A DNA stretch of 64,000 nt. Origin: Gammaproteobacteria bacterium. Lineage in GTDB: Bacteria; Gemmatimonadota; Gemmatimonadetes; Longimicrobiales; Gaopeijiaceae. Under the pieces are notes generated by a model. It saw only the letters and a program-made list of their open reading frames with translations. It was not told the origin of the DNA and made no database searches. Positions 39,563-46,642 of this stretch are shown one piece after another. The DNA is taken from the NCBI GenBank assembly GCA_028819075.1, contig JAPPMM010000043.1:248001-312000 (forward strand), given 5' to 3'. How positions within the stretch are numbered: the first letter of the stretch is position 1; the number at the start of each line of letters is the position of its first letter. The position numbers and the translations under genes were made by a program.

Positions 39563-42500
39563 TCAATCTGGCATCCTCCCTGGCAAGCCATAGCTTACCA
39601 GCGTCCGGGTGCCGCGTTCGACGCGGCGCGGACCCACGGCCTGAATGGATGCGGAAGCTGCGGCGGCACTTGCGTCTTCTCCCCGAAGCACCGAACGCAG
39701 CTGACCGGTTTCTCGGTCCAGCACGAGTGCCATGGCGCGGTTGCCGGCTGCCGTCAATTCCGTCCTCCCCTCCGGCCCGGACAGCACGATGCGTTCGAGC
39801 GACGCCAGCCATTCATCTTCGAACGGAATTGTGAAGACGAACCCCCCTCCGCCCTCGCCCGTTTTATCGAGTGCAAAGTCCAGTGCGAATTCGGGGGCAC
39901 CATTGGCGGCGATACCCTCAAGTCGATAGGGGCCGCGGCTGGTTGGCAGTCTCGCCGCCGCGTCAAGCACAAACGCCGGATCGAGACGCAGTTCGCCCTC
40001 CGAACTTACACTGCCCCAAAGCAGGAGAACCGTGCTGCCGTCGTTCGCTGCACTTGATGTGGTCTCCTCTTCCGCCGACAGTCGGTGGTCAAGCGCCTTC
40101 GCAAAATGATAGTCACTGATCCAGGCCGGGTCGCAGTAGCCCATCAGGTCGGCAGTGTTGGGAGGCACCAAGCGGTTCGACCGGAAATCGTATCCCCACA
40201 CACCGATCTCGCCACTGGGATACGGATAGTTGGGGTCGGGGTCGAACAACAGACCGCACGGAGCGTGACGCAGGCTCATGCTGTGACCCAATTCGTGCAC
40301 CATGGGATCGGCCTCCGGCACACCGACGGCGGCAGGGCTCGAAACGTAGGCGAGCCCGGTGATGCCAGCGCCCCCGGGACGAGTTACAGCCCCGTAGTAG
40401 TACCCGTCCGCCTCGTCCGTGAGCCTCAACAGCGTGATGTCCTGCAACAAATCGGTCCAGGCTCTGAGCGAGGTCGGGTCGACATCCGTGACATAGGTCT
40501 CGCGTACCGCGACATCCACTTCGGTGACCGGAAGAACATTGGTCAGGAGCCGAATCGCGTCGTGGTTGCGTCCCAACGACGAAGCCCAGGCTCTAGCGGT
40601 GTTGTCTGGCTTATCTCTCACGACGATGGGCACCACCGTCAGCTTCATACGAGGCACCCGCCTCACGTCGAGTCCCATTCGTCCCTGTTCCGGTAGGCGC
40701 ATCCGGCTCCCGGCTGCCCGTGACAGGCTGCTGTCCGGATCGATTTCAACCACCATCTCCACTTCCGGTGCCAGCACGGCTGCGGGTACAGTCGCGTGGT
40801 AGGATCGATCCAGATTGCCGGGGTCCGCAGCTTCGGGAATCCCCAGCCCCGATACCATGCTCATCTCAACCCGATGCACTTCTTGTCCGTTGGCGAAGAA
40901 AGTCGCACGGGCATCAGGCCGGAGCCCGCTCTCGCGGTGCGCAGTGACGAAGACCCGGAGCAAGGCGGGACGGCCAGCGATCAGGGGCACATCGCCGTCG
41001 AGATTCTGAGCGGCTTGGGTCAGATGTGTGGCGGCCAACGTAACCAGCAGGGGCGACGAGCAATTCTCTCCTCCCACATGGTGTGTGATCGACCGTAGCC
41101 ATGCCTGGAATCTCTCTCCTTCCGGCGCACACAGACCACTGTCATCCCACTGGAAGTCGGCGAGCCCATTCAGAGCCACGAGCGACATCGGGAGCGAGCC
41201 CGTCTTCTGGTTATTGCCGAGAGAGAGCTCTTGCAGATGGATCAACCGGCCTAACTCGTCCGGCACCCTGCCGACGAACTGATTCTGGCGAAGGTCGAGC
41301 CGCCGCAACTCGGTGAGGTCACCGATTCCCGCTGGTATCGAATTCCGGAACCTGTTGCGGGAAACATCGAGCGACCGCAGCGAGGCCAAGTGACCGAGGT
41401 CGGCGGGAATGCTCCCGGTCAACTGGTTGGCCTGAAGTTCAAGCCGTTGCAGATCTACCAACTCCGCCACCTCGGCGGGCAGGGACCCTGATAGTCCATT
41501 ATTGCCAAGCTCGAGCGCGGTGAGGCGGCCTTCGCCGTCCACGGTCGTCCCGTACCAGTTGGATACGGGCAGGTCTGTTGCCCAGTTGGTGTTGTTGGTC
41601 CAGTCCTCGCCACCGGTCGCGTTGTAGAGCGCGATCAGCGCGTCACGTGGATCCGTGAAGCAGTCCGGCCCATGATGATAGTAGGGGATATTGCCGAGCC
41701 AGGTCTGGAAAGCCGGATAGGTCGGAGCGCAAAGCGCCGTGTCATACCATCGAAAGGTCCTGAGCTGTGAGAGATTGGCAAGTTCGCGGGGCAGCGGTCC
41801 CACGAGTTCGTTCGCTTGCAGATACAAGGACGTGAGGTTTCGCAGGTTGCCGAGCTCGGCAGGGACCGATCCCGACAGGCTGTTGTGACCCAGGCTCAGT
41901 GTTGATAGCCGGACGAGATTTCCCAGTTTCGGCGGGATGGAACCGGTCAGCTGGTTGCCGTTGAGGAACAGCCGATCGAGGTTGGCCATGTTTCCGAGTT
42001 CAGGGGGAATTGGACCCGTCAGTTCGTTTCTTCCCAGGAGCAGCCGTCTCAGACGGCCCAGGCGTGCAAGCTCCGAGGGAATGGGGCCGGTGAGGCTGTT
42101 AAGGTTGAGCACCAGCTTTTCGAGGGTTGCCAGCTTGCCGAGTTCGGCAGGGATGGAACCGGTCAGTTGGTTCCCGAAGAAGTTGAGTTCCAAGAGACTC
42201 TCGAGGTCGCCAAGTTCGGCAGGGATTGAGCCGGTCAGTTCGTTGTTGAACAGGATCAGTCGAGTGAGACCGGTGAGCTTGCCAAGTTCAGGTGGAATTG
42301 GACCCGTCAATTGATTCTCGCTGAGAAGAAGCAACTTCAGATCATCGAGACCGCCAAGTTCGGGAGGTATCTCACCGGTAAGCTGGTTCTCACTGAGGTA
42401 CAGTGTATCCAGTTGGGAGAGGCGCCCCAGTTCGGAGGGGATGTGACCGGTCAGCTTGTTCCCGCCAAGCCAAAGATTCGAGAGGTTAACCAGGGCTCCG

Positions 42501-43900
42501 AGTTCGCCCGGAATCGAGCCGGTCAGGTTGCCGTTGCGGTGAAGGAACAGACCCGTGAGGTTCGTCAGGTTTCCCAATTCCGGCGGAATCGAGCCCTCCA
42601 GGTAGTTCGAGGACAACCGCAGGTAGGTCAGGCTTGTAAGGTTGGCAAGCTCAGTTGGAATGGAACCCTCGAGACGGTTCGTGTTCACGTCCACATGCGT
42701 GAGGTTCGTGAGCCGACCGAGTTCGGGGGGAATGGATCCCGCCAGTTCGTTCCACTGGAGTTCCAGTATTGTCAGCTTGGGGAGATATCCCAATTCGACC
42801 GGGATCGAGCCTCTCAGATTGTTGTACTGCAGGCGCAATCGCGTGACTTGTCCCTGCGCGTTGGTGGTAACACCATGCCAGGATCCCAGCGGCGCATCGG
42901 TGAGCCAGTTCCGGCTTGTGTTCCAGTTCGGCCCGCCGGCCGCATGGTAGAGCGCAGCCAGAACGGCTCGGTCGTCTACAGCGATGACCACCATCCTGGC
43001 GGCCCCCGCAAGGGTGCCACCTGCGAGTTCCGCCCTTACCTCCACCGATCCCGAGGAGATCGCCGTAACGAGCCCGGTCTCGTCCACCGTCGCTACGTTC
43101 GGGTCGTCGGAGGACCACGTTAAGTCTCCCATGGAGTCCACGACGGGATGGCCGTTCGCGTCCACCAGTTCCGCCGACAGTTGAAGTGTATCCCCGAGCG
43201 CCCGCAGCGTATCGGCAGCCGGCGTGACCTGCACAGCCACGACTTCCTGCTCCACGGCAAACCCAGCGCTGGCGTGGCCCGCACCGGACGTCGCCCGCAC
43301 GCTGGCACGTCCATTCCCGGCGGCTGTCACCAGTCCACTGCCATCCACGGTCACCACGGAGGTGTCGGACGAAGACCAGATAGGGTGGACGGCGGGGATC
43401 GGGTTCCCGTTGGAATCCCTGGCAGTGGCAGACAACCGCAGGGTGTCCCCCAGCGCCCGGAACGCCCCTTCGATGCGGGACAACTGGATGTCCTGCGCCT
43501 GCTGGGCGACGGTGACCGCTGCGTTTCCCGAGGGACCACCATCCTGGACGGTCGCCTTGACCGTCGCGTATCCGTTGCTGATCGCCGTCACCAGGCCGGC
43601 AGCACTCACCGTCACCACCGACTCGGCGACAGTCGACCACACAAGGGCAAGGCCATGCATGGGCTGCTCGCTCTGGTCGAGCACGGTAGCCGTCAGCTGA
43701 ACTGTCTCGCCCAGCGCAGCCAGGGTCACCGGCGAGGGTGTGATCTCGACTGAGGCCGGAACGGGCGTTGCCGTCGGTCCGTCGTCCCCGCAGGCGAGCA
43801 GCAACGCCGCCAGGGAAGAGAGGAGGCTGCGTGACGTGAGGGCGGAGTCCGGCTTGCTCTGACCCCGGCGCTTGGCAAGGTGGCAAGCGGTCTCTGACAT
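39563..43900 (-). CDS. giant lipoprotein: BIG2-like repeats, two LRR blocks, metzincin protease
   Basis: A surface protein of 1445 residues. The lipobox is LAALLLAC (Cys at residue 37). About three BIG2-like Ig domains follow (residues 50-310; e.g. ALGETVQLTATVLDQSEQP, VVTVDGSGLVTAAGNGRASV). Next are two plant-type leucine-rich repeat blocks, each opened by an ALYxAxGGxxW cap. The last third contains the zinc motif HELGHSMSLRH (40265-40297) and a Met-turn-like ADLMGYC, i.e. a metzincin-type protease (M66-like at motif level). A final beta-rich domain ends at GLPGRMPD. An alternative start at TTG 43906 adds two residues. The host or target of the protease is unknown. It is convergent with the amidase gene. 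Confidence 0.88.
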   Translation of the reverse strand: MSETACHLAKRRGQSKPDSALTSRSLLSSLAALLLACGDDGPTATPVPASVEITPSPVTLAALGETVQLTATVLDQSEQPMHGLALVWSTVAESVVTVSAAGLVTAISNGYATVKATVQDGGPSGNAAVTVAQQAQDIQLSRIEGAFRALGDTLRLSATARDSNGNPIPAVHPIWSSSDTSVVTVDGSGLVTAAGNGRASVRATSGAGHASAGFAVEQEVVAVQVTPAADTLRALGDTLQLSAELVDANGHPVVDSMGDLTWSSDDPNVATVDETGLVTAISSGSVEVRAELAGGTLAGAARMVVIAVDDRAVLAALYHAAGGPNWNTSRNWLTDAPLGSWHGVTTNAQGQVTRLRLQYNNLRGSIPVELGYLPKLTILELQWNELAGSIPPELGRLTNLTHVDVNTNRLEGSIPTELANLTSLTYLRLSSNYLEGSIPPELGNLTNLTGLFLHRNGNLTGSIPGELGALVNLSNLWLGGNKLTGHIPSELGRLSQLDTLYLSENQLTGEIPPELGGLDDLKLLLLSENQLTGPIPPELGKLTGLTRLILFNNELTGSIPAELGDLESLLELNFFGNQLTGSIPAELGKLATLEKLVLNLNSLTGPIPSELARLGRLRRLLLGRNELTGPIPPELGNMANLDRLFLNGNQLTGSIPPKLGNLVRLSTLSLGHNSLSGSVPAELGNLRNLTSLYLQANELVGPLPRELANLSQLRTFRWYDTALCAPTYPAFQTWLGNIPYYHHGPDCFTDPRDALIALYNATGGEDWTNNTNWATDLPVSNWYGTTVDGEGRLTALELGNNGLSGSLPAEVAELVDLQRLELQANQLTGSIPADLGHLASLRSLDVSRNRFRNSIPAGIGDLTELRRLDLRQNQFVGRVPDELGRLIHLQELSLGNNQKTGSLPMSLVALNGLADFQWDDSGLCAPEGERFQAWLRSITHHVGGENCSSPLLVTLAATHLTQAAQNLDGDVPLIAGRPALLRVFVTAHRESGLRPDARATFFANGQEVHRVEMSMVSGLGIPEAADPGNLDRSYHATVPAAVLAPEVEMVVEIDPDSSLSRAAGSRMRLPEQGRMGLDVRRVPRMKLTVVPIVVRDKPDNTARAWASSLGRNHDAIRLLTNVLPVTEVDVAVRETYVTDVDPTSLRAWTDLLQDITLLRLTDEADGYYYGAVTRPGGAGITGLAYVSSPAAVGVPEADPMVHELGHSMSLRHAPCGLLFDPDPNYPYPSGEIGVWGYDFRSNRLVPPNTADLMGYCDPAWISDYHFAKALDHRLSAEEETTSSAANDGSTVLLLWGSVSSEGELRLDPAFVLDAAARLPTSRGPYRLEGIAANGAPEFALDFALDKTGEGGGGFVFTIPFEDEWLASLERIVLSGPEGRTELTAAGNRAMALVLDRETGQLRSVLRGEDASAAAASASIQAVGPRRVERGTRTLVSYGLPGRMPD
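41168..41530 (-). repeat. LRR block 2: 5 repeats of about 24 residues
   Basis: Five further repeats of the same type (LTGSIPADLGHLASLRSLDV and relatives) with their own N-terminal cap and a closing LCAP segment like block 1. The cap-LRR-cap unit is therefore duplicated inside the protein. Confidence 0.93.
41768..42856 (-). repeat. LRR block 1: 15 repeats of 24 residues (72 bp)
   Basis: Fifteen consecutive repeats follow the plant-type consensus GSIPxELGxLxxLxxLxLxxN. Typical units read LTGSIPAELGDLESLLELNF and LTGPIPPELGKLTGLTRLIL. The first unit is 26 and the fifth 25 residues long, all others 24. The block is closed by a capping segment with LCAP. Confidence 0.95.
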
Positions 43901-44120
43901 GGACAAGGCAAGCGTCCCTGGTTTCGTATTCCAGCTTGTCTGCGGTGTGCGTCTTCAGGATGCGGCAGTCGAGCCAGGGAAGCCAGATGAAAATACAGGT
44001 GTCAATGGACATCGAAAATGTCACACTGTGAGGACCGCCCCGCGGAGAGAGCGGAGCGACCAGAGCGAGCGAGCACGAGGGTTTAGCCGGCCGCCTCCGC
44101 GACGGCTCGGTGCCGCTGCT

Positions 44121-44705
44121 TCAGCTGCGTCGCCCCCACGGCCGCACGAACGTCTCCGGCTCCACCCCCAGCCCGTCCGCCACCCGGGTGATGTAGTTGA
44201 AGTACCCGATCACCTGGGTGGCATCGTGGATCGCCCGGTCGTCGAAGCCATGGCCGCGCAACACCTCCAGATCGCCCGCTCCCACTTCCGCCTGCCGCAA
44301 CGTCAGCTTCTCGGCATAGTCGCACAGCGCCTCGTCCGCCTCGGACAACCCCGCCTCGCGCCAGTCGCGCACGATCGCGTGCACGAAGGCGTCCCGCTCT
44401 TCATCGCTCTCGAACAACTCCTCGATCTCTTCCCGGAGATCATGCGCGTGCGCCTGCTCTCAGTAGAAGCAGCCGTTCACCTTCGAGGTGATCACCGCGA
44501 GCATCTCGCGGCGCCATCGGTTCAGGGGCGAAGACCCGAACATGAGCGTGCGGTAGAACTGCATGGTGGTCTGCATGACCCTGGGGTTCAGGCTCATCAC
44601 CCGCACGATGTTCCAGATCCGGCCCGCCCGGTCCCGCGCTTCGCCGTAGAGCTTGCGCAGGAGGCCGGTAGCCTCGGATTCGGATATCTCTCTGATGTTG
44701 GACAT
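44121..44705 (-). CDS. AhpD-like peroxidase-related selenoprotein candidate (in-frame TGA = Sec82)
   Basis: One frame of 194 codons, ATG 44705 to TGA 44121-44123, is interrupted by TGA at 44460-44462. The first part (WNIVRVMSLNPRVMQTTMQF, MFGSSPLNRWRREMLAVITS, VNGCFY) and the second part (EQAHAHDLREE, ALCDYAEKLTLRQAEVG, ATQVIGYFNYITRVADGLGV) together make a complete peroxidase-related carboxymuconolactone-decarboxylase-fold protein. The TGA stands at the second Cys of CxxC: Glu67, Cys79, residue 82 and His86 have the spacing of Glu118, Cys130, Cys133 and His137 of mycobacterial AhpD. A SECIS-like hairpin follows. The likely role is peroxide reduction with a selenol. The alternative is a nonsense mutation of a Cys codon. 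It is 8 nt downstream of an Omp85 gene. Confidence 0.75.
44424..44441 (-). promoter_or_regulatory. candidate bacterial SECIS element
   Basis: In the mRNA sense, GAUCUC-CGGGAA-GAGAUC forms a perfect 6-bp stem, extendable by one U-G pair, with a 6-nt loop whose second base is G. The loop begins 24 nt after the in-frame UGA. This agrees with the general description of bacterial SECIS elements: a short stem, a small apical loop with an early G, located a few tens of bases after the UGA. Confidence 0.6.
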
Positions 44706-44713
44706 GGACAGGA

Positions 44714-46642
44714 CTACCTCGAAACCCCTTCGAAGTTGGGATTCACGCCCGAGCGCCGGCTTCGCACCATCTGCGTATCGGCGAATCCGCGCACCAGGCC
44801 GATGAAGTCGCCGGTGCTCGCGCGGAACATGGGCCCGCGCCCCGAGTCCGCGCCAACCGGCCAGGCCAGATCGATGCGCGTCGCCCGGACGCTCCCCGCT
44901 GGAAATCCCAGGCGCAGCCCGGCGCCGACCGAGGACTTCCAGCCGGTGTCCATGCCGAACGGCACATCGCCCGCCCAGGCCCGGCCGGTATCCGCGAAGA
45001 AGGTGAGCCCCAGGTCCATGGACGAGGGGGCGGGCCAACCCAGATCGACGCGGTTCTCCAGCGAAGCCACCACCCGCCGGCCCGCGGGAAAGTCCTCTTC
45101 CTTGTATCCCCGCACCACCTCCCGGCCTCCGAGGGTGAGCTGGAACGGGGAGATGGTGTTCCAGCCGCCGGCGGCGGAGACCCGCGCGACCAGCGTCCGG
45201 GCGAAGCCCACGCCGGGCTGCCAGTAGGCAAGCAGGTCGGCCTCCGAGAGGATGTCCCTCCAGCGTCCCTCCGCCTCGTCCTCGAACCTCACGCGGCGGG
45301 CTTCCGTCTCGGCATTCACCAGCAGCAGCGCCGATGCCGATCCTACACCCCCGAAGAAAGAGACGCGGCCCATGAAGTCGCTCGCGAGATCGGCCTGCGA
45401 CGCGGGCGACGACGCCTCCTCCGTCGACAGCCCCCGTCCCAGCGGCAGTCGCGGCCCCAGCGTCAGGGACAGGTCGAAGCCCTGCGGAACGCTCTGCTCC
45501 CCGCTCACCGCGTCCAGTCCGGTCCGGGTCTCGAAACGCACCTTTCGCCTGGCGAGTAGCAGGTTGAAGCGGGTGAGATCGTGCCCTCGGGTCTGGCCCG
45601 CCAGACGCGAGCCGATGCCCGGTTCGTCGTCGAGCAGGTTGCCGAAGTCCAGGCCCCGGACGAGCGACACGGAGTCGGGATACTCGTCGAAGCGCAAGGT
45701 CTCGTGCGTGACGCCGAAACCGAGCAGCGTCAGATCGCCCGGCTCTCCGAACCGATACGCCTGGGTGGCTTCGATGCGCTCCCCGAACACCGGCAGGAGG
45801 GCATAGCTGTAGTCCAGCGAGGGGTCGAGCACGTACGGAAAGAGCGACTCACGACGATGGAAGCGCAGACGTCCCGCGAATCGCCCCACTTCTCCAACGA
45901 AGGGGTACACCAGCATCGCGTCCGTGAAGCCGCCCGAGCGCGTGCGGCCCACGTTGAGGCGCCCGTCCAGCCGCGTGCCGGCGAGGCGCGTGGAGTGCAG
46001 GGTAAGCCCTAAGTCGCGCCGCTCCTTGCGCTCCTGATAGAAGGCGCCGATCAGGTTGCCCGAGCCCAGGAAGTTCTCCTCCACCACGCTCGCGCCCTCG
46101 AACTGCAACCCGTCGTCGACGGTCACGTCGATCTGGATCTTGGTGGTCCACTCGTCGCGCGTCGTCACCCGCACGTGGCGGGTGCCGTCGGGCTGGGGCT
46201 CGGCGACGATGTCCGCGGTAGCGATGAAGCCGAGTTCGCGCAGGATCCTCTCGGACTCCTCGAAGAGAAACGGGTCCGGGCAGTCCCCTTCGCCGAACAG
46301 CAGCTCGCCGGCGATGAACCCTTCCCGCGTGTCGACGTGCATGAAGTTCGCGAGCCCGCGCGTCCAGCGCAGGATGCGCGGCTGCGACGGAGGCCCAGGG
46401 TCGAAGATGGGCCGGCTTTCGATGATGATGCGCGAGACCGGTCCCGCCTCGCAGGCGACATCTTCACCGGGCAGCTGGGCGCGCGCCGGACTTGCCGCCC
46501 CGAGAACTCCCGTTAGAAGGACACCCGCGGACGCCAGGCAGCGGAGGCTGGCAACAGAGAGATCAGGCAAGGGACCGTGCAGAGAATGCGCTCGGAGGGA
46601 AGTTTGATCCGGGACCAGTCGGAGACGGACCCGAAAGCTCAT
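44714..46642 (-). CDS. Omp85/BamA-family surface antigen
   Basis: A protein of about 642 residues with a signal peptide (CLASAGVLLTGVLGAASPARA). The part up to residue about 200 has one or two POTRA-like modules (LFEESERILRELGFIATADI, VRVTTRDEWTTKIQIDVTVD). A 16-strand-type barrel follows with SVVEENFLGSGNLIGAFYQE and the conserved loop-6 segment LTLGGREVVRGYKEEDFPAG, including the VRGY motif. The reduced POTRA number makes it more like TamA or accessory Omp85 proteins than BamA. The ATG at 46642 is chosen over a TTG at 46663. The AhpD-like selenoprotein candidate follows after 8 nt. Confidence 0.85.
   Translation of the reverse strand: MSFRVRLRLVPDQTSLRAHSLHGPLPDLSVASLRCLASAGVLLTGVLGAASPARAQLPGEDVACEAGPVSRIIIESRPIFDPGPPSQPRILRWTRGLANFMHVDTREGFIAGELLFGEGDCPDPFLFEESERILRELGFIATADIVAEPQPDGTRHVRVTTRDEWTTKIQIDVTVDDGLQFEGASVVEENFLGSGNLIGAFYQERKERRDLGLTLHSTRLAGTRLDGRLNVGRTRSGGFTDAMLVYPFVGEVGRFAGRLRFHRRESLFPYVLDPSLDYSYALLPVFGERIEATQAYRFGEPGDLTLLGFGVTHETLRFDEYPDSVSLVRGLDFGNLLDDEPGIGSRLAGQTRGHDLTRFNLLLARRKVRFETRTGLDAVSGEQSVPQGFDLSLTLGPRLPLGRGLSTEEASSPASQADLASDFMGRVSFFGGVGSASALLLVNAETEARRVRFEDEAEGRWRDILSEADLLAYWQPGVGFARTLVARVSAAGGWNTISPFQLTLGGREVVRGYKEEDFPAGRRVVASLENRVDLGWPAPSSMDLGLTFFADTGRAWAGDVPFGMDTGWKSSVGAGLRLGFPAGSVRATRIDLAWPVGADSGRGPMFRASTGDFIGLVRGFADTQMVRSRRSGVNPNFEGVSR

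Follow-up and report, generated by a model that had tools for sequence, protein, structure and literature searches.

An AhpD-like gene with an internal stop codon almost certainly read as selenocysteine at the active site in a Gemmatimonadota-type genome

The minus strand of the window (the whole 64,000-nucleotide stretch of DNA that was analysed) carries a complete AhpD-like (peroxidase-related, TIGR01926) coding sequence at 44121 to 44705, predicted to specify a selenoprotein of 194 residues. It opens with an ATG at 44705-44703 and terminates with a TGA at 44123-44121 (codon 195), and its sole in-frame interruption is another TGA at 44462-44460, codon 82, which occupies the position of the second catalytic cysteine of AhpD and turns CxxC into CxxU (here CFYU). 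The codons of the partner Cys79 (TGC, 44469 to 44471) and of the predicted proton-relay residues Glu67 (GAG, 44505 to 44507) and His86 (CAC, 44448 to 44450) complete the layout E-x11-C-x2-U-x3-H, and the product with the TGA read through runs MSNIRE...VNGCFY-U-EQAHAHD...PWGRRS. The first-pass annotation had described two same-frame halves parted by this TGA, with Glu67, Cys79, Sec82, and His86 in AhpD catalytic spacing, and both points are confirmed in the sequence. It also foresaw that automatic pipelines would split the gene into 44460 to 44705 and 44121 to 44417, much as happens: the ORF caller gives 44460 to 45038, from an upstream TTG start, and 44121 to 44417.

An Omp85-family gene precedes the AhpD-like gene with an 8-nt gap, and downstream (39563 to 43906, minus strand) is the gene for a 1,447-residue LRR/Big_2 protein, which combines Ig-like domains of the Big_2 type with numerous leucine-rich repeats and a stretch resembling Peptidase M66 and is probably secreted or surface located. 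The adjoining genes offer no hint of function for the AhpD-like gene, and none of them codes for a peroxiredoxin. An Rfam scan of the window and PADLOC both returned no match. When the window was screened for further TGA codons that lie within redox motifs and are flanked by long open stretches, the AhpD-like gene remained the only convincing case.

With the TGA translated, the protein scores 129.9 bits against TIGR01926 (peroxidase-related enzyme; cut-off, 81.8) over residues 5 to 183 and 30.7 bits against the Pfam CMD model. Alignments with the PDB entries 6k40 (E 3e-28) and 2oyo (E 2e-27) span the TGA; these Cys-type peroxidase-related proteins share the family and the E-x11-C-x2-C-x3-H layout but have Cys at position 82, where the window's protein would have Sec, and a few residues fewer right after the motif. 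Mycobacterium tuberculosis AhpD (1GU9) is remote in sequence and has Cys instead of Sec, but its relay (Glu118, Cys130, His132, Cys133, and His137) has identical spacing (PMC3141380), with Cys133 corresponding to Sec82, Cys130 to Cys79, and His132 to Tyr81, a residue that is likewise Tyr in PA0269. The alkylhydroperoxidase-related (seleno)protein family NF041238 (AhpD_rel_CFYUT) has a homologous domain and a CFYU motif, but its model is longer (357 positions) and reads CFYUT where the window's protein reads CFYUE; it was rejected as the home family, the match of 60 bits being far below the cut-off of 175.

Homologues were aligned from 121 genomes of the same taxonomic family and from the GTDB collection, some genomes being present in both. 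The gene has a homologue in 92 of the 121 family genomes, and all 110 aligned homologous loci have TGA at codon 82, a single stop each, and Glu67, Cys79, and His86 intact. These loci come from Gemmatimonadota, Chloroflexota, Planctomycetota, Verrucomicrobiota, Actinomycetota, Myxococcota, and Fidelibacterota (seven named phyla), and close relatives show none of the random stops elsewhere that the first-pass annotation had named as evidence against its reading. Together with the TIGR01926 match, the invariant TGA places the frame far beyond chance. Comparison with near relatives gives dN/dS values of 0.05 to 0.10 downstream of the UGA and 0.02 to 0.19 upstream; purifying selection is thus equally strong after and before the TGA, and the downstream part is therefore translated and selected.

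Cysteine at position 82 (TGC or TGT) is found in 12 more distant homologous loci, which have the motif CxYC and form a separate clade. The expectation that most homologues would have Cys at this residue was not borne out, as the close ones are of the Sec form, and the Cys forms belong to a distant clade whose genomes mostly lack selB. A selB gene over the cut-off is absent from 10 of 11 genomes with Cys forms (the exception being G076) and present in 68 of 74 with Sec forms (Fisher p 2.6e-8, a value that ignores the relatedness of the genomes); the 6 Sec-bearing genomes in which none was found over the cut-off are assemblies of 63 to 93% completeness. The protein family also includes another Sec clade, paralogous to the first and marked by the motif CFYU-INHHGAGLR (L145 to L152), which accompanies the first Sec clade in many genomes of the taxonomic family and was not found in the window's genome.

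The genome holding the window (a 4.40-Mb assembly, 97.6% complete) was searched family by family, and the selenocysteine genes that the first-pass annotation proposed looking for are all present. The tRNA-Sec has the anticodon UCA and scores 74.8 bits, above the cut-off (ARAGORN likewise calls SeC(tca)), and selA (516.2 bits), selB (309.6 bits), and selD (301.5 bits) exceed their curated cut-offs, the four being spread over different contigs. Use of the Sec system is supported by three further genes in which a redox motif contains a TGA: a SelW-like (Rdx, PF10262) gene with the motif CTAU (L157, C40:4590-4802, plus strand) and two AhpC/TSA peroxiredoxin genes with an in-frame TGA at the active site (L160, C47:715-1110, and L163, C45:100033-100428, both plus strand), whose motifs are UPWC and TRGU. 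This uncultured Gemmatimonadota-type lineage appears to have at least four candidate selenoproteins and a working Sec system.

A candidate bSECIS hairpin lies just downstream of the UGA at 44424 to 44441 (minus strand), with the 5' arm GAUCUC (44441-44436), the apical loop CGGGAA (44435-44430), and the 3' arm GAGAUC (44429-44424). The published bSECIS model has an upper stem of 4 to 16 bp, a loop 16 to 37 nt after the UGA, and an apical loop of 3 to 9 nt with a G within the first two positions (PMC13188914), and the candidate agrees with it, having a 6-bp stem and a loop with G at position 2 that begins 24 nt after the UGA, the hairpin itself starting at 18 nt. All six pairs are retained in 48 of 48 distinct sequences (288 of 288 cells), and sliding the partner to other registers lowers pairing to 27 to 50% of cells. 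Double changes occur at only one of the six stem pairs, pair 24-37, which is C-G in 39 sequences, U-A in 9, and broken in none, and which links the third (wobble) position of an Asp codon with the first position of an Ile or Val codon. Free folding of three stretches of 47 to 66 nt around the UGA gave stabilities no greater than those of shuffles, and the longest adopts another fold, so the case for a SECIS rests on conservation and covariation and not on energy. In many members from Planctomycetota and Verrucomicrobiota the stem is related but its loop is shorter, and in the CFYU-INHHGAGLR clade a separate hairpin places its loop 16 nt downstream of the UGA.

The internal stop codon is thus almost certainly read as selenocysteine at the active site, as judged from sequence comparison, and the proposal that the gene is expressed as a selenoprotein gains support from the Sec machinery, the conserved UGA, the selection downstream, and the hairpin. 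Should the TGA instead be a nonsense mutation or a misread TGC or TGT, the gene would be dead or of the ordinary Cys type; the codon is one base away from either Cys codon, and distant homologues do have Cys at position 82, but all 110 loci, drawn from many assemblies, share this TGA, the frame has no further stops, and selection downstream is strong. We consider such an error or pseudogene extremely improbable, and the conservation of the TGA at the same codon across phyla refutes it. No more credible is a genome-wide reassignment of TGA (to Trp, for example) or its decoding by a near-cognate tRNA with no SelB recoding, for which nothing speaks except the in-frame TGA itself. The TGA is exactly at the position of a catalytic Cys and not of a Trp, the genome has tRNA-Sec and the full Sec machinery, and genome-wide reassignment is rejected since the AhpD-like gene itself ends at an ordinary TGA stop.

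Selenocysteine translation and the AhpD-like family assignment are well supported at the level of sequence, and it is very probable that UGA 82 is read through by means of SelB and the hairpin to give a 194-residue Sec redox enzyme of the AhpD/CMD fold, the fold being that expected of the family. Sec-tRNA would be made by SelA and SelD with tRNA-Sec, and SelB would recognise the hairpin just downstream of UGA 82 and bring the Sec-tRNA to the ribosome at that codon. In the product, Sec82 would stand in for Cys133 of AhpD (the second Cys of CxxC) with Cys79 as its partner and Glu67 and His86 as a proton relay, an arrangement that makes reduction of peroxides or protein disulfides the most likely reaction. 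Sec82 presumably attacks the peroxide or disulfide to form a selenenylsulfide with Cys79, which a cellular thiol donor may then reduce again. The best reading of the product, by analogy with its family, is a selenocysteine peroxidase or disulfide reductase. We give somewhat less than even weight to a selenoprotein that is chiefly a disulfide reductase or adaptor recycling a peroxiredoxin, as AhpD does for AhpC, or some other CMD-family enzyme. AhpD is mainly an adaptor to AhpC (PMC3141380) and several peroxiredoxins are encoded in the genome, including two with an active-site TGA, but the complete Glu, Cys, Sec, and His set tied to AhpD peroxidase activity (PMC3141380) is retained, and no peroxiredoxin gene adjoins the AhpD-like gene. 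That the protein and the Sec peroxiredoxins of this genome form a selenium-based AhpC/AhpD-type pair, with one selenoprotein recycling another, seems unlikely.

AhpD-like selenoproteins had been described before, as the first-pass annotation rightly stated: a 2008 ocean survey counted 299 "AhpD-like 1" (COG2128, CxxU) selenoproteins (PMC2398784), and a 2026 review lists an "AhpD-like protein, TIGR01926, CxxU," crediting the 2005 Sargasso Sea selenoproteome (PMC13188914). Ocean metagenomes have thus made the family known since 2005, and the window's gene is therefore a further example. It shares with the published protein the NCBIfam family, the motif, and a downstream bacterial SECIS-type hairpin, and no substantive difference was found, the window's gene being in a Gemmatimonadota-type (BD2-11-like) lineage; likeness to the published representative MCB9421940.1 was judged by family, motif, and hairpin. 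The gene leaves the understanding of Sec or of AhpD-like proteins unchanged, and it recovers whole a gene that automatic annotation would split.

Two observations concern the homologues. Beside its own 57% copy, a genome of another genus (G021) carries a second one (L028, C77:9714-10289) that shares 95% identity with the window's gene, which reflects either lateral transfer or bin contamination. Four near-identical records (L053, L054, L055, and L059) are titled "Gammaproteobacteria bacterium" and look mislabelled, with equally close records titled Gemmatimonadetes or BD2-11 clade.
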